From the NCBI RefSeq assembly GCF_003987395.1, contig NZ_PIPT01000003.1, positions 186,001-250,000 of the forward strand: DNA of 64,000 bases, given 5' to 3'. Position 1 is the first letter of the stretch; the number at the start of each line of letters is the position of its first letter. Both the position numbers and the translations under genes were made by a program. The DNA is from Pseudidiomarina aquimaris. Its GTDB lineage: Bacteria; Pseudomonadota; Gammaproteobacteria; Enterobacterales; Alteromonadaceae. Under the pieces are notes generated by a model. That model had not been told where the DNA came from and did not search any database. It worked only from the letters and a program-made list of their open reading frames with translations. Below are positions 5,713 through 16,546 of this stretch, piece by piece.

Positions 5713-7461
5713 ATGTTGCAACCTGGGTTCGGAAAGTTTGCTATTGCTGCAGTAAGTAGCTTGTTGTTGTTCGGTTGTGCCCAAGCTCCGAGTGATATCC
5801 CGCCAGCGCCATTCGAGCTCACTGTTGCGCATGTAAACGATCATCACTCGAACCTGTTGCCCCATGCAGGCACTCAATTGCATGTCATGGGACAAGATTA
5901 CGAAGTCGAAACCGGTGGTTTTGCGCGTGTGGTGAGCCAAATTGCTGCGATTCGTGCCGCCAATGCTAACGTATTGGCGCTGCACGCCGGCGATGCCATT
6001 ACTGGCACCTTGTTCTATACCATTTTCAACGGCGAAGCTGACGCCGCCTTAATGAATCAAGTGTGCTTTGATGCCTTTGCCCTGGGCAATCATGAATTTG
6101 ATAATGGCGACAAAGGGTTAAAGCACTTTCTTGACGCCTTGGCGTTAACCCAAGACTGTCGAACCGAAGTTTTAGCCGCCAATGTTGAACCTCAAGTAGG
6201 TGTTTCACCACTCACGCCAAAAACTCGTTGGGATAGCTTCAAGCCCTACACTATATTCTCGGTTGGTGGCGAGAAAGTCGGGCTCATAGGTCTTGATATC
6301 GCCATCAAAACCAAAAACTCCTCGCAGCCTGATGCGACCACAATGTTCGCTGATGAACTGGCCACGGCGCAGTATTACATTGCCGAATTACAACAGCAGG
6401 GCATCGAAAAGATCGGCCTGTTGACGCATATTCAGTACAAAAACGACTTACGCTTAGCCGAACAACTACCTGCGGTAGATTTTATCGTTGGCGGTGACTC
6501 GCACACCCTATTGGGTGATTACGCTAGTTATGGTTTACCGACTGTGGGACCGTACCCGATGCAAGTCACCAACGCTGACGGCGCGCCCGTATGTATCGCG
6601 CAAGCGTGGCAGTACAGTCAAGTCGTGGGGGAGCTGAAAGTTAGCTTTGCCGGTGATGACGTTGCCAGTTGTGGCGGACAACCGCACCTGTTGGTGAGTA
6701 CTGATGCGCCAGAAGCAATCACCCGTCTCGAAGGTTTCACCGCAGTGGCTCCGGATGCTACCGCCCAAAAGATGCTCGTCACCTACCAAGATAGCCTCGA
6801 TGAGTTGACGCAGACCAACATTGCCGAAGTAGCCGAGCGCCTGTGTATGAAGCGCATGGGGCCAATGACCTTGGCTGATTGTGGTATTGGCCGTCAATCC
6901 GATGTTCATGCAATCGTCGCGGAAGCCTTTCTCGCTAGCGCACCACAGGCTGACTTTGCGTTGCAAAACGGCGGTGGCGTGCGTACCGATCTGAATGCCG
7001 GCGCTTTAACCATTGCCGACGCTTATCGCTTGTTGCCGTTTGCGAATACTTTGGTTGAAGTACAAATTACTGGCGCAGAGGTGAAGCAAGTGCTCGAACA
7101 GGCAGTGGAATACGCTTTGTCGGATTCTGGCTCAGATGGTGCTTACCCGCATGGCGCAGGTATCCGCTTCGATGTTGATATTAGTGCCGCAAATGGCGAG
7201 CGTTTTAGCAATCTACAGGTGAAAACAGTTTCCGGCTGGCAACCCCTGCAGCCCGAGCAAAGCTACACCATGATCACCAATAGCTTCTTGGCGGGTGGTG
7301 CTGATGGCTGGCGCTTACTAGGTGACCTTAAACAAGCAGGGTTAGTACAAGATACTTATGTGAACTATGCGCAGTCGTTTGTCGACTGGGCCCGCAAAAT
7401 AAAAACAATAAAACGGCCGACCGAACATAGCACGCAAAGCTATCGGGCGGCGGACGAATGA
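5713..7461 (+). CDS. UshA/NadN-type 5'-nucleotidase (NAD nucleotidase) lipoprotein
   Basis: Periplasmic or outer-membrane-anchored nucleotidase that probably hydrolyses NAD, UDP-sugars or nucleoside 5'-monophosphates for salvage. A lipoprotein signal peptide ends in the lipobox LLFGC (Cys22). The metallophosphatase domain shows VNDHHSN, GDAITGTLF, GNHEFDNG and GGDSHT, the usual two-metal ligand set. The C-terminal 5'-nucleotidase domain contains NGGGVRTDL and the Phe clamp region. Length (582) is typical. It is in an operon with the oxygenase upstream and overlaps the MFS gene by 4 nt (ATGA). NadN-like function is favoured by the YGLPTVGPYP segment, but UshA remains possible. Confidence 0.88.
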   Translation: MLQPGFGKFAIAAVSSLLLFGCAQAPSDIPPAPFELTVAHVNDHHSNLLPHAGTQLHVMGQDYEVETGGFARVVSQIAAIRAANANVLALHAGDAITGTLFYTIFNGEADAALMNQVCFDAFALGNHEFDNGDKGLKHFLDALALTQDCRTEVLAANVEPQVGVSPLTPKTRWDSFKPYTIFSVGGEKVGLIGLDIAIKTKNSSQPDATTMFADELATAQYYIAELQQQGIEKIGLLTHIQYKNDLRLAEQLPAVDFIVGGDSHTLLGDYASYGLPTVGPYPMQVTNADGAPVCIAQAWQYSQVVGELKVSFAGDDVASCGGQPHLLVSTDAPEAITRLEGFTAVAPDATAQKMLVTYQDSLDELTQTNIAEVAERLCMKRMGPMTLADCGIGRQSDVHAIVAEAFLASAPQADFALQNGGGVRTDLNAGALTIADAYRLLPFANTLVEVQITGAEVKQVLEQAVEYALSDSGSDGAYPHGAGIRFDVDISAANGERFSNLQVKTVSGWQPLQPEQSYTMITNSFLAGGADGWRLLGDLKQAGLVQDTYVNYAQSFVDWARKIKTIKRPTEHSTQSYRAADE

Positions 7462-8651
7462 CAGTAACGCCGGTCTCCGATAAGGCAAAATTTGATCTAG
7501 TTGTTGTCGTCCTGGCCCTGCTCACCATGTTTGGGCCACTGTCGATTGACATGTACCTGCCTGCATTTGGCGATATCGCCGCAAGTTACGGCACCGAGTC
7601 GAATCGCGTAGAACTCTCACTGACTTCATTTTTCTTGGGACTTTTCATTGGCCAGTTGCTGTACGGTACGGCGTCGGACAAATGGGGGCGTAAGCCGCCG
7701 CTGTATTTTGGCCTAACGATCTATATCTTGTCGTCGCTGGCCTGTGCCTACGCGCCAAATCTTGAAAGTCTAATCGTCCTGCGTTTTCTGCAAGCTATCG
7801 GCTCATGTGCCGGTCTAGTGATTGCACGTGCGATGGTGCGTGATCTCTACACTCCGCAGGCATCGGCCCAGGTTTTCTCGTTCTTAATCCTGGTGATGGG
7901 TATCGCGCCAGTCTTGGCGCCACTGGCGGGCGCTTATGTCACTAAAGCGTTTGGTTGGCAGGCGATTTTTATCATTGTGGCGGTACTTGCCGTGGCGTGT
8001 ATGGCGATTGTGCATATTCGGTTGCCAGAAACGCGAGGTTTTAATGGTGCCGTGCGGATGCGGCGCAGTTTGCCCATCTATTGGGATGTGCTCAAAGACC
8101 GGGGTTTTTTGCGTTATTCGTTAGCGGGCGGAGTGGCACAGTCGGGTTTGTTTGCTTATATCACTGGCTCGCCGTTGGTGTTCATCGAGCATTTCGGACT
8201 CGAACCAACCCATTACAGCTGGTTGTTCGGCCTTAACGCCATTGGCATCATTGGTATGGCGCAGTTCAATGCGTGGTTACTGCGTCGCCGCGATGCGCGT
8301 AAGATTCTTAACAAGTCGTTGCCTGTGCTGGCAGTTATTGCCATTACAGCAATCGTTTTGGGCGCGCTTAACGCTAATTTCTGGTGGGTCTTAATCGTCG
8401 TATTCGCCTACGTAAGTACCCTTGGTATGGTCTTCCCCAATGCCATGGCCGGCGCTCTCGCCGAACAACAAGAACGCGCTGGCTCCGCCAGCGCAGTCAC
8501 CGGCAGCTTACAATTCCTCATCGCCGGCATGATCTCCGCCGTCGTCAACGTCGTCGGCCACCAACACCCGCTCGGCATGCTCTTCGTCATTGGCGCCTGC
8601 GGCCTGACGGCCACTTTGCTTTATCGCTTACTGCGTCGCCCACTTATATAG
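7458..8651 (+). CDS. Bcr/CflA family multidrug MFS exporter
   Basis: Twelve-helix inner-membrane drug/proton antiporter of the Bcr/CflA (DHA1) family. The 397 residues include the family signature MYLPAFGDIAASYG in helix 1, the A-like motif GTASDKWGRKPP between helices 2 and 3, and RFLQAIGSCAGLVIARAMVRD in helix 4. The start overlaps the nucleotidase stop by 4 nt, which implies translational coupling. The stretch from about 8400 to the stop uses unusually many C-ending codons compared with the first half, possibly a recombination tract or drift. Confidence 0.93.
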   Translation: MTVTPVSDKAKFDLVVVVLALLTMFGPLSIDMYLPAFGDIAASYGTESNRVELSLTSFFLGLFIGQLLYGTASDKWGRKPPLYFGLTIYILSSLACAYAPNLESLIVLRFLQAIGSCAGLVIARAMVRDLYTPQASAQVFSFLILVMGIAPVLAPLAGAYVTKAFGWQAIFIIVAVLAVACMAIVHIRLPETRGFNGAVRMRRSLPIYWDVLKDRGFLRYSLAGGVAQSGLFAYITGSPLVFIEHFGLEPTHYSWLFGLNAIGIIGMAQFNAWLLRRRDARKILNKSLPVLAVIAITAIVLGALNANFWWVLIVVFAYVSTLGMVFPNAMAGALAEQQERAGSASAVTGSLQFLIAGMISAVVNVVGHQHPLGMLFVIGACGLTATLLYRLLRRPLI

Positions 8652-8872
8652 GTTCCTGGACTCGCCAGGCTGCGGTGCCTAGTCATGGATTGCGTAGCTT
8701 TAAATGTGCAGAACAACTCAAAGAGCTTGTGCAACCTCCGGGCCAAAACCTGAGTTTTGAGGTAGAAAAAATTCTACCAAGTGTGAATCAACAGTTGATT
8801 TGTTTTTTTTGTGATGTTACTTGTTACGTTAGTTACCAAATAAATTAACAACAAAACTAGTAAGGATGCTAT
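8652..8872. other. Intergenic region upstream of the Rhs gene
   Basis: No gene is seen in these 221 bp. It contains an inverted repeat GGTAGAA-AAAA-TTCTACC at 8761-8778, a weak hairpin followed by eight T at 8786-8810, and the Rhs ribosome-binding site TAAGGAT six bases before the ATG at 8873. The 3' half is AT-rich. Confidence 0.6.
8786..8810 (+). terminator. Weak intrinsic-terminator-like hairpin after the MFS gene
   Basis: AATCAAC at 8786-8792 and GTTGATT at 8794-8800 are perfect inverted repeats followed by TGTTTTTTTT. The stem is short and AT-rich, so termination would be inefficient; it may equally be a promoter-proximal element of the Rhs gene. Confidence 0.4.
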
Positions 8873-11800
8873 ATGGCACGGATGCACTCTTTTGCCGTTT
8901 CTGCGCTTTCATTTCTGCTCTTTGGGGCTGTACCAGTTGCCGCGGAGGAAGACGCCCCGCCACCGTCTCTCGAGCGTTCGATTGAGTCGCAAACTTCGAT
9001 GCGCGACAGAGGCGACCTGTCGAGCGTTGAGCTTTCGCCGGCGTTGGAGTGGGATAAACGTAGTGAAATTGGTGAGCGGCTGTCCGAGCATGGTACGGGT
9101 TTACTCGGTGATACCATTGACCCGCACATGGGAACACTGTCATTTTCGCATACCGATATTTCGTTACCGGGAAATTCTGAGCTGCCCGTCGCACTCATCC
9201 GTGAGTTGACACAAGGTTACTTTCACAACCTTGATGAAAACGTAGAGTTTGGCGACTGGCACTATGCAGTGCCACGCTTACATGTGATCACCTCAACGCA
9301 GTCTGGCAATCCGGGAACGAATTGGGCTGGGGCTCGTTGCACCGACCCCTCATCAGCATTTGCTGTATCCATTTATTCGGGGGCGAATTCTCTCGACATC
9401 CAAAGCTATGTTTACCCAGTGGAATACAGCAATGGCTTGCAGCTTGCTATACCTGGGCAGGGCACGCAACAAGTGCTCAGTATGTCGCCGAACGTCAGCC
9501 AACCGTTCCCCTCCGCCGCGCAATTTGTCACACCTGCTGGCTGGTATTTTATCTGTGGCTCGGCGAGTGATGGTGACGATGGGTTTGTTGGCATCGCCCC
9601 CAATGGTGACCAGTATCGCTTTGACCGTTATGCGCAATTCAAACACCGTAACTTTGGCGCCATAACTCCGGATGGTGGTAATGCTGGTCCAAGCCGCATT
9701 ATTGAGCGAGTACGGGCGATGTTGCTGGCCACCGAGGTGACCGATGTGCATGGGAATTGGGTGCGCTATGACTATGACGCGTCTGGCCGTTTGACCCGTA
9801 TTTACGCCAACGATGGGCGCTCGATTACCTTAAGCTATAACGCAGACGGCGTGGTGTCCTCAGCAACCGCTAATGGCAGAACCTGGACTTATGGGTATGT
9901 CAGTGCTGAGGTCGGCGATATGATGCGCGGCGATTACGCGGCAGCAAAACAGGTGCTTGACAGCGTCACGCGCCCGGACGGTACTGCGTGGTCCTTTGAC
10001 TTAGTCGCCATGCATCACCGCCCGGAAACCGGGACCTATTGCACCAACACTGGTGGAAGCTTAAGCCTTACGCACCCCAACGGGGTGACCGGCACGTTTG
10101 CGATCACCGAACTGAAACACCGCCGTGGCTGGGCGGAATGGATGACCGAAACCACACTGCGTTGCTCGGGGGCTTTTACCAATCCGCGGCAGCCGACCTA
10201 TTACGATATCTACCACGCGCCCACCGAGACCATGGCGGTCACGCAAAAAACCGTCACCGGCCCCGACATGCCAACCTCGCAGTGGACTTACACCTATGAG
10301 CAGGATGTTGAAGAGGAGCGCTACCCGGTAGGCCATGAATACGAAGGGCATCCCATTGCGACGTCGGAGAACGACCCCACAAACTGGACTAAAGTAGTGA
10401 ACCCGGATGGTTCAGAAACGACTTATGTGCATTATTGGTCAGAACTAAGCATTACAGGCTTTGACACGAGGCATGCAGGGAAGCTTGCAGTTAAAGAAAC
10501 GCGCTCTTCACCCGGTGGCAGCGTGTTAGAGAGGGTTGATTACAGCTATGTAACTGCTGGAAGCTTTGGGCCGTCGTATTTACCCAATGACTATCAATAT
10601 GCACCGCTAAGCTCATCGGTCTCGTCGGCGTCCGCAACCGCCAATGTGCAACTAGTCAAGCAAATTCAGGCGCGGGATGGGGATACTTTCACCACCGAAT
10701 ACGCCTATAACACAACACAGTCGTCGAGCGCATACTCCTACGGCAAGCCGATTCAAACGAAAGTCTGGTCGAATGTCTCAACAACACCACGAACCACCGA
10801 CATTACCTATGCGCATAACACGACACACTGGGTGTTGGGTTTAACCAAAACCGTGACGGTGAACTCTCGCCTGACCGATAGCTACAATTACACGAGTAAA
10901 GGCGATATCTATCAGCATTGGAAGTATGGGCAAAAAATTGCTGAGTACAGTTACAACAGTTCGGGAACCTTGAATGCAGTGACCGATGCCCGCGGACAGG
11001 TCACGACGTTACAAAACTGGAAGCGTGGTATGCCGCAGCAAGTGACGCGCCCCGACAACACTGTCATTTACCAGTACGTTGATAATAACGGTTGGCTGAC
11101 GAGCACGCGCGATGGCCGCGGCAATACCACGAGCTACTCGCGGGATGCGATGGGTCGGTTGACGGCGATAGACTATCCAGGCAGTTGGTTGAACACCACT
11201 ATCAGTTATGACTTCTCGCAAGGCGGCGCGAAGCAGACCATTGTACGTGGTAGCGCACTGACCGAAATCGACTACGATGGTATGTTCCGCCCGGTGTTGG
11301 AGAAACGCCAGGCGTTGGATACCGGCTGGGTGGCGTACGTGAAGACCAACTACAACAACACCGGTCACGTCGCGTTTAAGTCGCTCCCGGCAACCAGCGC
11401 GTCGCCTGCGGCTGGAACTAATTACACGTATGACAGCCTCGGTCGAGTGCTTACGGAAACCGAAACCGTTGCGCCGTACGCTCAGGTGAGCCATCAGTAC
11501 ATGAGCTCACATCGGCACCGTGTCTACGACCCGTCTAATGCGTATACTGATTATTATGCCTATGGCTATGATGGCCCGGGCTCGGACGATTATCGCGCGA
11601 TTTACCATAGCTCGGGCACCAAGACCGACCTCGTGAAAAACGTGTGGGGTGAGCTAACACAACTGCGCCAATGGGGTACGCAAAACGGTTATACGGTTGA
11701 CCAAAGCCAGTATTATTATTACGACGCGAAGCGCCGCGTGTGTCGACATTACACACCGGAGACCGGTGCCACGCTGTATGCCTATAACGCGGCGGGGCAA

Positions 11801-13639
11801 GTGACCGCCTATGCGCAAGGGCAGGCAAACAGTGGTTGTACGGTGCCAAGTTCAACGGCGCGTGTGGATTTATCCTACGATGCCATGGGGCGCTTGACCG
11901 TCACCGATTATGACGATGGCATCACACCGAATATCAGTCGCAGCTACGATGCCGATGGAAATCTTCTCAGCGTCAGCCGCGGTGGCGTCAATTGGGATTA
12001 CAGTTACAACAACTTAAGCCAGCTCACCGCCGAAACCTTAACGCTCGATAGTCGCACTTATGCACTGTCGTATAGCTATAACAGTGCCGGACAACTCACG
12101 CAAAAGACGCTGCCGTCAGGGCGCAGCATCACCTATAGCAACGATGGCTTGGGTCGCCCTTTAACGGTGCGCAATAACGGCGCACTGTTGGCTTCAAGTA
12201 TGAGTTATCATGCGAACGGCAGTCTGGCTCAGGCCGCTTACGCGAACGGTCATCAGTTTACACAAGCACTGAATGCACGCGGCTTACCGCAGCAGCTTTA
12301 TGTAAGCGATGGCGTGCAGGTCGCGCTTGACCAGTCCATGACGTACGATGCGCGAGGCAACTTAACCCAACTGACCGACGCCGCGGTGCCGAGCAATTCA
12401 CGCGCCAATAGCTATGACGGACTCAGTCGCCTGGTCAGCGCCAGTGGTCCGTGGGGAAGTGGCAGCTATACCTACGATGCCCTAGGTAACCTGCGCCAGA
12501 AACAGCTCGGTTCGCGCACGGTCGACTTGAGTTACAATAGCGTGAACCGCTTAGCGACAAGTGACGACTCCGGCGCTTCTGGCTTGCGCAGCTTTAGCTA
12601 CGACAGTCGTGGCAATGTCACTGCCGTCGGTGCCTTGCAGTTTAGCTATGATGCTGAGAACCAGCCCATTGGCGTTAGTGGCAGTAGTAGCGGCAACTAT
12701 GTTTACGATGGCAATCTCAAACGTGTCAAACAAACTGTAAATGGCGCGACGATATACAACGTCTACGATAAAGCCGGCCAGCTAGTGCATGTCGATAAAC
12801 GCGATGCTGACAAAAGTACGGATTACATTCACGGGACACAGGGCACGCTAGCACGCATTACCAATAACGCCGTGACCTATTTACATCACGACAGCCTTGG
12901 TAGTGCGCAAAGTGGAACGGACAGCAGCGGTGCGATCCTCTGGCAGGAAGCGTACACGCCATATGGTGAAGCTCTTAATGACATCTCTGCCAACCAAGAC
13001 TTAGCTGGCTTTACCGGGCATATTAAAGATGATGCGACCGGCTTGAGTTATATGCAGGCACGATACTATGATCCAGTCATAGGTCGTTTTTATTCGAATG
13101 ATCCGATAGGTTTTACCTCCACCAACCCGATGATGTTTAATCGGTATGCGTATGCCAATAACAACCCATATCGATTTAAAGACCCTTCAGGAATGTGTTC
13201 TGAAGAGCTTTCAGAGTCTGAGGTTTCTTGTGAAGCACAGGATACACTAACTGACATATTAGAACCTCTGATGGAGGATCTTTTAGAAGCTCTAGGTTTT
13301 GAAGTTGTTCCCGATGGAATGAGAGACCCTGATGGTAGGTTTGCATACGAGGCAGATGAAAACTCTGTTACCGAAGAGCTAATAGCAATTGGCATATTGG
13401 CCGGTAAATCGAAGCTAAAAGGTAAAAGACGAGGCCTACGCAAGAAACCTGGTTCTCTGGGGGCTGCTAAAGGTACTGATGCGCTTCGAAGAGAGAATAA
13501 ACAAGTAAGAGATGCAGCAAATGCTGCTGGTGGATTAACCAAGGACCAGAAAAGCAAGCTTCACCAAGAAATTAGTGGGCAGGGTTATGATTATCATACT
13601 ATTGTTGAATTAGCGAAGGAGATCAGAGGTGGCGGCTAA
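8873..13639 (+). CDS. Secreted RHS/YD-repeat polymorphic toxin protein
   Basis: Large surface or secreted protein (1588 residues) of the Rhs/YD-repeat class; these form a cocoon that encloses a C-terminal toxin delivered to competitors. A Sec signal peptide occupies residues 1-25. A long N-terminal region precedes dozens of YD repeats (for example YDAMGRLT, YDSRGN) from about residue 300 to 1340, then the Rhs core-associated segment (YTPYGE, YMQARYYDPVIGRFYSNDPIGF) ends in DPSGM near residue 1440. The last ~147 residues are variable: an acidic start, a basic KGKRRGLRKKPGS linker, then KGTDALRRENKQ and a terminal LHQEISGQGY motif. I recognise no catalytic motif there. Base composition shifts to AT-rich from about 13100. 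The next gene overlaps it and is the likely immunity gene. There is no VgrG or adaptor nearby. Confidence 0.93.
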   Translation: MARMHSFAVSALSFLLFGAVPVAAEEDAPPPSLERSIESQTSMRDRGDLSSVELSPALEWDKRSEIGERLSEHGTGLLGDTIDPHMGTLSFSHTDISLPGNSELPVALIRELTQGYFHNLDENVEFGDWHYAVPRLHVITSTQSGNPGTNWAGARCTDPSSAFAVSIYSGANSLDIQSYVYPVEYSNGLQLAIPGQGTQQVLSMSPNVSQPFPSAAQFVTPAGWYFICGSASDGDDGFVGIAPNGDQYRFDRYAQFKHRNFGAITPDGGNAGPSRIIERVRAMLLATEVTDVHGNWVRYDYDASGRLTRIYANDGRSITLSYNADGVVSSATANGRTWTYGYVSAEVGDMMRGDYAAAKQVLDSVTRPDGTAWSFDLVAMHHRPETGTYCTNTGGSLSLTHPNGVTGTFAITELKHRRGWAEWMTETTLRCSGAFTNPRQPTYYDIYHAPTETMAVTQKTVTGPDMPTSQWTYTYEQDVEEERYPVGHEYEGHPIATSENDPTNWTKVVNPDGSETTYVHYWSELSITGFDTRHAGKLAVKETRSSPGGSVLERVDYSYVTAGSFGPSYLPNDYQYAPLSSSVSSASATANVQLVKQIQARDGDTFTTEYAYNTTQSSSAYSYGKPIQTKVWSNVSTTPRTTDITYAHNTTHWVLGLTKTVTVNSRLTDSYNYTSKGDIYQHWKYGQKIAEYSYNSSGTLNAVTDARGQVTTLQNWKRGMPQQVTRPDNTVIYQYVDNNGWLTSTRDGRGNTTSYSRDAMGRLTAIDYPGSWLNTTISYDFSQGGAKQTIVRGSALTEIDYDGMFRPVLEKRQALDTGWVAYVKTNYNNTGHVAFKSLPATSASPAAGTNYTYDSLGRVLTETETVAPYAQVSHQYMSSHRHRVYDPSNAYTDYYAYGYDGPGSDDYRAIYHSSGTKTDLVKNVWGELTQLRQWGTQNGYTVDQSQYYYYDAKRRVCRHYTPETGATLYAYNAAGQVTAYAQGQANSGCTVPSSTARVDLSYDAMGRLTVTDYDDGITPNISRSYDADGNLLSVSRGGVNWDYSYNNLSQLTAETLTLDSRTYALSYSYNSAGQLTQKTLPSGRSITYSNDGLGRPLTVRNNGALLASSMSYHANGSLAQAAYANGHQFTQALNARGLPQQLYVSDGVQVALDQSMTYDARGNLTQLTDAAVPSNSRANSYDGLSRLVSASGPWGSGSYTYDALGNLRQKQLGSRTVDLSYNSVNRLATSDDSGASGLRSFSYDSRGNVTAVGALQFSYDAENQPIGVSGSSSGNYVYDGNLKRVKQTVNGATIYNVYDKAGQLVHVDKRDADKSTDYIHGTQGTLARITNNAVTYLHHDSLGSAQSGTDSSGAILWQEAYTPYGEALNDISANQDLAGFTGHIKDDATGLSYMQARYYDPVIGRFYSNDPIGFTSTNPMMFNRYAYANNNPYRFKDPSGMCSEELSESEVSCEAQDTLTDILEPLMEDLLEALGFEVVPDGMRDPDGRFAYEADENSVTEELIAIGILAGKSKLKGKRRGLRKKPGSLGAAKGTDALRRENKQVRDAANAAGGLTKDQKSKLHQEISGQGYDYHTIVELAKEIRGGG
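12367..12906 (+). repeat. Rhs core segment duplicated downstream (parent copy)
   Basis: These 540 bp inside the Rhs gene recur at 14331-14870 with the same length and no gaps, differing at scattered positions (about eleven amino-acid changes over roughly 175 codons). The segment encodes the last YD repeats up to the HDSLGSA motif just before the core. Confidence 0.95.
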
Positions 13640-14111
13640 TAATCAAAAATTGAAACATGCGCTAGAAAGTTTAGTAGGAGTGAGGTGTATTCATTGTCTC
13701 TGGGGCAAAGGTACAGGATCGGTTGTTAAGTTTGGCTTTACAATTAATGACTCCTTACAAACAGAGAAGCGTTCCCAACGATCAATATTAAGAAATGAAC
13801 TAATGGTTTACTGCGCGTGGAGGTTGGTTTCGAATTCATTTGGTATCTTTTCTTGGAGAGACATTGGAATTCGCGACCAAGAACTAATAAAAGCGTTCGA
13901 CTCAGTTTCTGGGCAAAGTATTGTTGAGCTTAACTATGATGCACAAAGTCACGACTTTAACTTTCAATTTGAAGACAATTCTGTATTCAGCATTTTTTGT
14001 GATATCGCAAGTGATGATGAAAGCGATGAAAATTACATTCTTTTTAGTAGTTCAGAAATTTTATATATTGATTATCAAGGGAATATTCAAACAGAGGCAT
14101 ATGCAGTTTAG
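13629..14111 (+). CDS. Candidate immunity protein for the Rhs C-terminal toxin
   Basis: No family recognised. The 160-residue protein begins with GTG inside the last codons of the Rhs gene (11-nt overlap in a different frame) behind a good AAGGAG site ending 7 nt before it. It has no signal peptide or membrane segment, so it is cytoplasmic, with an acidic C-terminal half (CDIASDDESDENY) that could complement the basic toxin tail. It shares the AT-rich composition of the toxin-encoding end, unlike the Rhs body. Position, overlap, size and composition are those of Rhs immunity genes; function is inferred from this alone. Confidence 0.72.
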   Translation: MAANNQKLKHALESLVGVRCIHCLWGKGTGSVVKFGFTINDSLQTEKRSQRSILRNELMVYCAWRLVSNSFGIFSWRDIGIRDQELIKAFDSVSGQSIVELNYDAQSHDFNFQFEDNSVFSIFCDIASDDESDENYILFSSSEILYIDYQGNIQTEAYAV

Positions 14112-14330
14112 ATGTTAACAAAGACCTGACACTTTTAGTGCTTTTCAAGATGCCTAACACTTTTCTGTCGTTTAAGCGGCCTGTTGGGCTCGCAGCTTAA
14201 CTGACAGTGTTGCAGGGTCCAATGGATGGAGTTCAATATTCTGTGTCAGCCAAGTTTTCATAAGTCGATTTGGCCATCCAGTCAACCTTAAAATAGATGG
14301 TCAGCTGCGACCAACGCTAAGATGTTTTAT
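14112..14330. other. Mosaic spacer with possible transposase tail remnant (minus strand)
   Basis: No intact gene. Read on the minus strand, 14170-14290 gives an open tail that includes KTWLTQNIELHPLDP and ends in AQQAA before a stop, which looks like the C-terminus of a lost gene, possibly a transposase. The flank carries two near-copies of CCTGACACTTTT/CCTAACACTTTT (about 14127 and 14151), the kind of motif often found beside REP-type transposase genes. The family assignment is a guess. Confidence 0.3.
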
Positions 14331-14907
14331 CCAACTGACCGACGCCGCGGTGCCGAGCAATTCACGCGCCAATAGCTATGACGGACTCAGCCGCCTGGTC
14401 AGCGCCAGTGGTCCGTGGGGAAGTGGCAGCTATACCTACGATGCCTTAGGTAACCTGCGCCAGAAACAGCTCGGTTCGCGCACGGTCGGCTTGAGTTACA
14501 ATAGCGTGAACCGCTTAGTGACAAGTCATGATTCGGGCTCCTCAGGCTTGCGTAGCTTTAGCTACGACAGTCGTGGCAATGTCACTGCCGCCGGCGCCTT
14601 GCAGTTTAGCTATGATGCTGAGAACCAACCCATTAGCGTTAGTGGCAGTAGTAGCGGCAACTATGTTTACGATGGCAATCTTAAACGCGTGAAACAAACT
14701 GTAAATGGCGCCACGATATACAACGTCTACGACCAAGCCGGCCAGCTAGTGCATGTCGATAAACGCGATGCTGGCAAAAGTACGGATTACATTCACGGGG
14801 CACAGGGCACGTTAGCACGCATTACCAATACCACCGTGACGTATTTACATCACGACAGCCTTGGTAGTGCTGACCTTTCCCCTGAAATAACATCGTATTT
14901 TCAATGA
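14331..14907 (+). pseudogene. Orphan Rhs core fragment (displaced tip, toxin lost)
   Basis: A 540-bp copy (14331-14870) of 12367-12906 of the upstream Rhs gene. An open frame runs from a GTG at 14350 to 14907 (185 codons) and reads YD repeats up to HDSLGSA, then ends in ten unrelated residues after the copy breaks at 14870. It lacks the core end, a toxin domain, an immunity gene, a signal peptide and a ribosome-binding site, so it is unlikely to be expressed as a functional protein. Such orphan modules are usual in Rhs loci and act as donors or relics of toxin-tip exchange. Confidence 0.88.
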
Positions 14908-14980
14908 GATTTCAGTCTGTTGACAGGCCGTAGATACGAATGCAATTTTATCCTCTCCACATTATAAAAAGCCGCCCAAC

Positions 14981-16546
14981 CTAAGGAGTGTAGTAGGTTG
15001 GGGTTTCGACGCCTACTGGCATGCCGAGGGCGAACACCCAGATGAAGAACAGGATGCTCCAGCCGAGTAGGAACATGATGCTGTAGGGCAACATGGTGGC
15101 GATGAGGGTACCGATGCCGATGTCTTTTTTGTAGCGTGCGGCGACGGCGAGGATGAGGCCGAAGTAGCTCATCATTGGGGTGATGATGTTGGTGACGGAG
15201 TCACCGATACGGTAGGCCGCTTGGATGACTTCAGGGGCATAGCCGATGAGCATGAGCATGGGCACAAAAATTGGTGCGGTGATGGCCCACTGTGCTGAGG
15301 CGGAGCCGAGCATGAGGTTGACGAAGGCGCACATCAGAATGAATAGGATAAATACTGATGGGCCGGTGAGGCCGACTTCTTGCAAGAAGGTGGCGCCTTT
15401 AATGGCGAATATTGAGCCAAAGTTGGTCCAGCCGAAGAAGGCAACGAACTGGGCGGCGAAGAATACCAAGACGATGTACATGCCGAGCGTGCTCATGGAC
15501 TCGGACATGGCGTCGATGACGTCGCGGTCGGTTTTCATGACTTTGGTAATACGGCCGTAGACGTAACCCGGGATTGCAAAGGTTATGAAGATAAAGGTGA
15601 CGATACCTTTCAAGAACGGCGAGCCGGCGACTTTACCGTCTTCTGGATTTCGCAAAATCCCCCATTCTGGAACGATGGTCAGGGCGAGTAGGGCACCGAG
15701 GAGTAAGAAGCTCAATCCAGCACCTTTGAGGCCGCGTTTCTCTTGATCGGTAAGGGCTTCGATCTTTTGTTCACTGAGGTTAATGCTGGCTTCTTTCGTA
15801 TCGTATTTACCGAGTTTTGGCTCGACGATTTTCTCAGTGACAAAGGTACCCATGATGGCGATCAAGAAGGTGGAAACCATCATGAAGTACCAGTTGGCTT
15901 CGGGCCCAACGTAGTACTCTGGATCGATTAGGTTTGCGGCTTTGGTGGTGATACCGGCGAGCAAGGGGTCGACAGTACCGATAAGTAAGTTAGCGCTGTA
16001 ACCTGCGGAAACGCCCGAGAATGCTGCGGCGAGGCCTGCTAATGGGTGACGTCCGAGCGAGTGGAATATCATCGCCGAGAGTGGTACAAGAACGACGTAA
16101 CCAAGCTCTGAGGCGGTGTTCGAGATAACACCGGCGAGCACTACGGCCAGGGTAACGACGCGTGGGTGCGCGTTCATGACGAGGCCGCGCATGGCAGCAG
16201 ATAGCAAGCCTGAGCGTTCGGCGATACCGACACCTAAGAGGGCCACGAGTACGGTGCCGAGTGGGGTAAAGCCGGTGAAATTGGTGACGAGGCCGGTGAC
16301 GATTCGTTGCAGGCCTTCGGCATTAAGTAAGCTGACGACTTCGATGACTTCACCGCCAGGGCGTGGATCCTGTGCGCTGACGCCAAAATAAGAGGCGATG
16401 CCACTGGCGACAATGACGCCGAGGGCAAAGAGGGCAAACAAGGTAATCGGGTGCGGTAAGAGGTTACCTAACCATTCAACGGTGTCGAGAAAGCGGGTAA
16501 AGGCGCCGCGTTTTTGGTTCTCGGCGGCTGAGTTTGATTGCGTCAT
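14981..16546 (-). CDS. AbgT family transporter, copy 2
   Basis: Second AbgT-family inner-membrane transporter (521 residues). It carries the same landmarks as the first copy: the N-terminal LLPHPITLFALFALGV helix, ERSGLLSAAMRGL, GSASAQWAITAPIFVPM and GDSVTNIITPM. The conserved repeat hairpins are intact. The ATG at 16546 has AGGAG upstream (CAGGAGCAGT). It is monocistronic: the Rhs fragment lies downstream and the heme protein gene is divergent. Substrate (p-aminobenzoyl-glutamate uptake or antimetabolite efflux) cannot be decided. Confidence 0.93.
   Translation of the reverse strand: MTQSNSAAENQKRGAFTRFLDTVEWLGNLLPHPITLFALFALGVIVASGIASYFGVSAQDPRPGGEVIEVVSLLNAEGLQRIVTGLVTNFTGFTPLGTVLVALLGVGIAERSGLLSAAMRGLVMNAHPRVVTLAVVLAGVISNTASELGYVVLVPLSAMIFHSLGRHPLAGLAAAFSGVSAGYSANLLIGTVDPLLAGITTKAANLIDPEYYVGPEANWYFMMVSTFLIAIMGTFVTEKIVEPKLGKYDTKEASINLSEQKIEALTDQEKRGLKGAGLSFLLLGALLALTIVPEWGILRNPEDGKVAGSPFLKGIVTFIFITFAIPGYVYGRITKVMKTDRDVIDAMSESMSTLGMYIVLVFFAAQFVAFFGWTNFGSIFAIKGATFLQEVGLTGPSVFILFILMCAFVNLMLGSASAQWAITAPIFVPMLMLIGYAPEVIQAAYRIGDSVTNIITPMMSYFGLILAVAARYKKDIGIGTLIATMLPYSIMFLLGWSILFFIWVFALGMPVGVETPTYYTP

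Follow-up and report, generated by a model that had tools for sequence, protein, structure and literature searches.

The locus described here raises a simple question: why are the main rhs gene and the putative immunity gene followed by a 540-bp piece of Rhs core that carries no toxin? The locus is part of the window, a stretch of 64,000 nucleotides from Pseudidiomarina aquimaris (C16:186001-250000 of G000, a draft genome of 2.8 Mb in 22 contigs), and the fragment is located inside a 308-kb contig. Plain coordinates are window positions; other places in this genome are given by contig and position. The features of the locus are listed in Table 1.

A displaced Rhs core fragment without a tip

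The first-pass annotation had described a gapless, displaced copy of the Rhs core with abrupt ends. To this the alignment agrees: compared base by base, positions 14331-14870 and 12367-12906 are identical at 512 of 540 positions, and the resemblance of the two copies is gone immediately outside the block. The copies form a direct repeat with an offset of 1964 bp, of which a repeat finder returned a 300-nt part at 95%. At its start, the match can be extended to 14327 through a CCAA common to both copies, and it ends at 14870. The longest exact runs shared by the fragment and the main gene are 60 and 54 bp. The 28 differences between them change 26 codons, 15 of which are silent and 11 nonsilent. 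The reading frame across the fragment is still open, and a profile search (Pfam and NCBIfam) of this 185-aa frame gave matches to YD/RHS repeats.

The core of the main gene ends with the motif KDPSG (codons 13178-13192, assigned by eye) and is followed by a tip of about 148 aa. Neither this tip nor the 160-aa frame at 13629-14111 had a Pfam or NCBIfam match at an E value of 0.01. The last base of the fragment corresponds to main-gene position 12906, about 270 bp short of the KDPSG codons, and the fragment does not reach a core end (DPxG) and variable tip of the kind found in an orphan rhs-CT/rhsI module. That no toxin accompanies the displaced piece had been noted before and was borne out: its right edge is followed by 110 bases, starting with an insertion sequence (IS) end, and then by the convergent AbgT-family gene, the next gene, at 14981, with no immunity gene or tip found 3' of the fragment. 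A sigma-70-type consensus scan of positions 13600-15000 gave no site on the plus strand and one promoter-like site on the minus strand, compared with 1.9 expected by shuffling. When the fragment was compared with plasmids (72,556 records, distant mode), no match was obtained.

Table 1. Features of the rhs locus and its surroundings (window positions)
Feature	Position	Strand	Remarks
MFS transporter gene	7458-8651		Flanks the rhs locus
Whole rhs locus	8643-14967	.	Insertion between the MFS transporter gene and the convergent AbgT-family gene
Main rhs gene	8873-13639	+	1588 aa; RHS_repeat and Rhs_assc_core (residues 1361-1441)
Segment matching the fragment	12363-12906	+	Within the main rhs gene, about residues 1165-1345
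Putative immunity gene	13629-14111	+	160-aa frame overlapping the rhs 3' end; role assigned by position only
IS3-family end remnant	14138-14224	-	75-76% identical to stretches in L049, L050 and L053; aligned to L050
IS256-family end remnant	14231-14318	-	Outer repeat at 14231, inner side faces the fragment; aligned to L041
Rhs core fragment (very probable relic)	14327-14870	+	Includes the CCAA that precedes 14331-14870; encodes YD repeats; core end, tip and immunity gene absent
IS3-family terminal end	14871-14916	-	TGACC terminus abuts the fragment
AbgT-family transporter gene	14981-16546		Convergent; flanks the rhs locus

Insertion-sequence ends at both edges of the fragment

An IS terminus is present at the right edge, exactly to the base (14870/14871) where the core homology stops. 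The sequence around 14870-14916 recurs over 47-61 bases at three other places in the genome, C16:308170 (94%), C22:1280 (94%) and C20:434 (87%), and the C22 copy is the end of an element beside two frames that match IS3-family transposase. Positions 14917-14929 prolong the match to the neighborhood of C20:434 (L006), the sole such place in the genome. With 14917-14967 and the following bases as the query, matches among the loci fetched were confined to this same place.

Several minor observations concern this right-hand end. At three of its four genomic places, an rhs piece contains it or is no more than about 1.1 kb away. The IS3 end at C16:308170 (L004) interrupts a frame behind another sequence that looks by eye like an Rhs tip, and the short tail that it adds is nearly the same as the tail of the fragment's own frame. 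The roughly 50 bp that separate the IS3 end from the AbgT-family gene (14917-14967) are missing at this place in G007 and G021.

On the left, the flank (14112-14335) was used as a query against 26 genomes of the genus. This revealed matches in 11 of them (20 rows, one of which is the window itself). Parts of 14218-14311 were covered by 15 rows in eight genomes, at 80 to 92% identity, and parts of 14138-14224 by four rows in three genomes, at 75 to 86%; one genome matched both stretches. Frames were listed around 14 of these loci. Two of the IS256-type loci (L041 and L042) carry a 402-aa frame that is matched at its 3' end and is an IS256-family transposase (NF033543, E values of 3.5e-117 and 3.1e-113). 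Three more (L043, L047 and L051) are shortened pieces, and no transposase frame was recognized by eye in the remaining IS256-type loci listed. For the other stretch, a frame in L050 whose end matches 14138-14224 was assigned to IS3 transposase (NF033516, E value of 1.6e-55), and frames in L049 (2.8e-26) and L053 (1.8e-05) match the same model below its cut-off. In the alignment to L041, the IS256-type similarity extends to about 14318 and stops roughly 10 bp short of the fragment, which faces the interior of the element and not its terminus. Positions 14319-14326 and 14917-14967 fall outside the features assigned with confidence. Because no copy of either left-hand IS end was found elsewhere in this genome, their termini rest on the relatives.

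The sequences at the two edges resemble IS3- and IS256-family elements in that they are found elsewhere beside transposase genes of these families. Unlike whole elements, they are end remnants of only about 46-88 bp and contain no transposase. The far sides of the inserting elements are gone, which leaves no second target-site copy for comparison. Since both of its ends lie at IS scars, the 540-bp length is what insertion and deletion left over, and not a shared or exchanged tract. This carries a general caution: the length and ends of an orphan rhs piece need not mark a recombination tract.

Relation to other rhs copies and the exchange point

A search of the 26 genus genomes (one per species) with the fragment returned the fragment itself, the main gene, one copy on contig C20, one copy in G010, and one 31-bp match. 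G010, which is another species, was the only one of the 25 other genomes searched to match the fragment (88%). Over the 540 bp, the main gene and the fragment differ at 28 positions, the main gene and the C20 copy at 22, and the fragment and the C20 copy at 25; each of the three differs from G010 at 67-71. Private changes number 10 in the main gene, 10 in the fragment and 7 in the C20 copy. At sites that divide the four sequences two against two, with two three-state sites excluded, the main gene groups with the C20 copy five times, the fragment with the C20 copy twice and the main gene with the fragment once. Judged by these counts, the main, fragment and C20 copies are nearly equidistant. 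The fragment is thus an old paralogue and no fresh copy of the main gene, from which it has more differences than it has from the C20 copy.

These comparisons bear on two other explanations. It had been suggested that the fragment records the last exchange, in which case it would have been left behind when the main gene most recently changed its tip. Its position directly 3' of the putative immunity gene fits a displaced module, but the fragment resembles the main gene no more closely than it does the C20 copy, the two-against-two sites favor main gene plus C20 over main gene plus fragment, and the other two genes remain homologous to the main gene beyond 12906. We regard such an origin as highly improbable. 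Just as improbable is an assembly artefact caused by the collapse or misjoining of a repeat. In its favor, the assembly is a 22-contig draft, and the right-hand IS end is close to a contig end at three of its four places (C16:308170 of 308299, C22:1280 and C20:434). Against an artefact, the fragment is interior to its contig, the main gene, the fragment and the C20 copy are three distinct sequences with 22-28 differences between them, and the left flank (14112-14335) occurs only once in the genome. As far as the sequence can tell, the fragment does not represent a collapsed repeat.

The homology of the other two genes also indicates where tips are exchanged. The C20 copy is homologous to the main gene over 12136-13171 and the G010 gene over 8984-13206; both continue for 265-300 bp beyond the end of the fragment and then carry different tips. 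By eye, the proteins diverge briefly after NDP (about 13104-13150) and then agree up to DPxG. Because the shared sequence runs to 13171 and 13206 and other tips follow, the exchange point in these genes lies at or just before the KDPSG codons, some 200-285 bp past the right edge of the fragment. The first-pass annotation had taken the tract to mark exactly the part of the core that is shared. What survives of this is a displaced Rhs core piece that follows the main rhs gene and the putative immunity gene; with ends at IS scars and homology in C20 and G010 that runs past 12906, its limits are not those of the shared core. A search of genome contigs with the core end gave 20 loci, from which records of the same genome or near-identical ones may have been omitted; the best was a Pseudidiomarina insulisalsae contig.

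The differences between the fragment and the main gene are unevenly spread, with 9 of them falling within 40 bp, a clustering reached in 0.7% of 2000 random placements. Within this cluster (12555-12589), five changes occur in the fragment alone and one in the main gene alone; G010 shares the other three. This composition weakly disfavors a recent gene conversion from the main gene.

Other rhs copies in the genome show breaks of their own. In one (L002, C20:2300), the leader of the main gene (8745-8868) is joined directly to core position 12136, so that about 3.3 kb of core is missing, and the tip differs from that of the main gene. The same tip recurs in L136 (C20:65.2-66.2 kb), where it is split over two frames behind a core piece that has lost the stretch between about 12613 and about 12896. 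Three rhs pieces are broken within about 20 bp of one another, at the core equivalents of 12888-12906 (the end of the fragment, the start of L135 and an edge of the L136 deletion). This arrangement resembles a breakpoint hotspot, but the neighbors of the three breaks differ (an IS end, another repeat and a short shared word), and no common mechanism is proposed.

Origin of the fragment and setting of the rhs locus

The fragment very probably derives from a second rhs copy that was broken up by insertion sequences and is now dead, and it most likely represents the ordinary decay of an old duplicate, not a working toxin-swap switch. The second copy was most likely an orphan module of core and tip, placed 3' of the main rhs gene and the immunity gene; as the tip that once followed the fragment is unseen, a second rhs gene of greater length would fit equally well. 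The locus would have started with the main rhs gene, its immunity gene and at least one further rhs copy behind them, and IS elements would then have invaded it. On the right, an IS3 element may have landed in the core and later been lost save for about 46 bp, taking the tip beyond along with it. On the left, an IS256 element, inserted in an older IS3 element, may have been followed by a deletion running into the rhs core. Deletions would in this way have removed most of the IS sequence and the tip of the second copy; the end state is what is observed, and the order of events is inferred.

Consistent with the notion of a relic, further rhs pieces in the genome are also broken (the copy at C20:2300 and the orphan at C20:65-66 kb). 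Against it, the frame across the 540 bp is open, which weighs little, since 10 private substitutions are too few for a stop codon to be expected. Also on that side, the IS3 scrap at 14138-14224 has a similarity of only 75-76%, and a transposase above the family cut-off was found in only one (L050) of the three loci concerned. No sign of function was found, and most likely the fragment persists merely as not yet deleted.

The alternative that the fragment is a maintained recombination substrate, either exchanging tips with the main core or allowing the tip and immunity gene to be excised as a circle of about 1.96 kb, draws on its 95% identity over 540 bp and its spacing of 1964 bp. In the available parts of the source, main and orphan rhs genes of Salmonella LT2 share 522 bp at 95% identity (PMC3967940), and circular intermediates arising from such recombination are proposed in the available text of PMC2935791. 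The first-pass annotation had likewise offered the tract as a site for tip exchange. At this identity and length, recombination is possible in principle. An IS end lies directly 3' of the fragment, leaving nothing to exchange, and both of its ends are at IS scars. Because nothing lies behind the fragment, recombination with the main core would be expected only to delete the existing tip and its immunity gene, leaving the main gene tipless. A maintained substrate is therefore very unlikely. A slightly smaller chance is given to the idea that the tipless fragment serves as a disarming or export repeat, through which the 1.96-kb circle is excised and the main gene is capped by a short IS-encoded tail. 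If excision does occur, tip exchange through the proposed circular intermediate would have a natural substrate in this locus.

The reading as an IS-trimmed relic has parallels in known systems. As in orphan rhs-CT/rhsI modules (STM0292 of Salmonella LT2, PMC3967940; enterobacterial arrays, PMC2935791; available parts of both), the core piece is directly behind the main rhs gene and immunity gene, and in length (522 bp there and 540 bp here) and identity it resembles the LT2 orphan. Unlike the modules in these texts, the fragment has no tip or immunity gene, ends at IS scars and offers nothing that could be loaded onto the main gene. According to the same portions of PMC2935791, core pieces vary in length, and some are degenerate. 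For CDI loci, the accessible sections of PMC3150448 describe some orphans disrupted by IS elements and other cdiA-CT fragments that lack VENN and cdiI. The fragment is like these decayed orphans in having no boundary motif and no immunity gene and in the presence of mobile elements in orphan arrays; unlike it, those orphans are cdiA and not rhs, and the two kinds of decay are at different loci there. Given such orphans, degenerate core pieces and IS-disrupted orphans, as far as these sources extend, each proposed step of decay is ordinary. A literature search on Rhs in Idiomarina, within the text accessible to it, found no related work, and the locus provides a worked example of rhs-locus decay in Pseudidiomarina.

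Among the 25 other genus genomes searched, 22 have the best matches to the two flanking genes as neighbors on one contig. In G011 the two matches are split between contigs, and for G018 and G020 no MFS match turned up next to the AbgT-family gene. The gap between the flanking-gene matches is 8-1424 bases in the 22 genomes, versus 6335 in G000, and the widest gap (1424 bases) is that of G014, a genome without any rhs match. In the 13 of the 22 that were aligned to the window, similarity runs up to 8527-8642 and resumes from 14968-14991. Judged from these gaps and alignments, the rhs locus (about 8643-14967) is an insertion relative to its congeners.

The N terminus of the main Rhs protein (window 8873-8950) looks by eye like a signal peptide. 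No match to the type VI secretion system (T6SS) sheath gene tssB/vipA (PF05591) was found in G000; of 14 control genomes, E. coli alone was positive. With this start and no PF05591 match, the main Rhs protein is unlikely to be a T6SS effector.

Upstream of the main rhs gene, the sequence AAAACCTGAGTYTTGAGGT (window 8745-8763) occurs, with at most one mismatch, at 17 places (L142-L158) in 9 of the 26 genus genomes; its reversed control occurs at none in the 26. By eye, 15 of the 17 places have a longer upstream stretch in common. At the seven loci with listed frames, its neighbors, named by eye, are rhs, AbiE-like, Fic-like, transposase-like or unrecognized.
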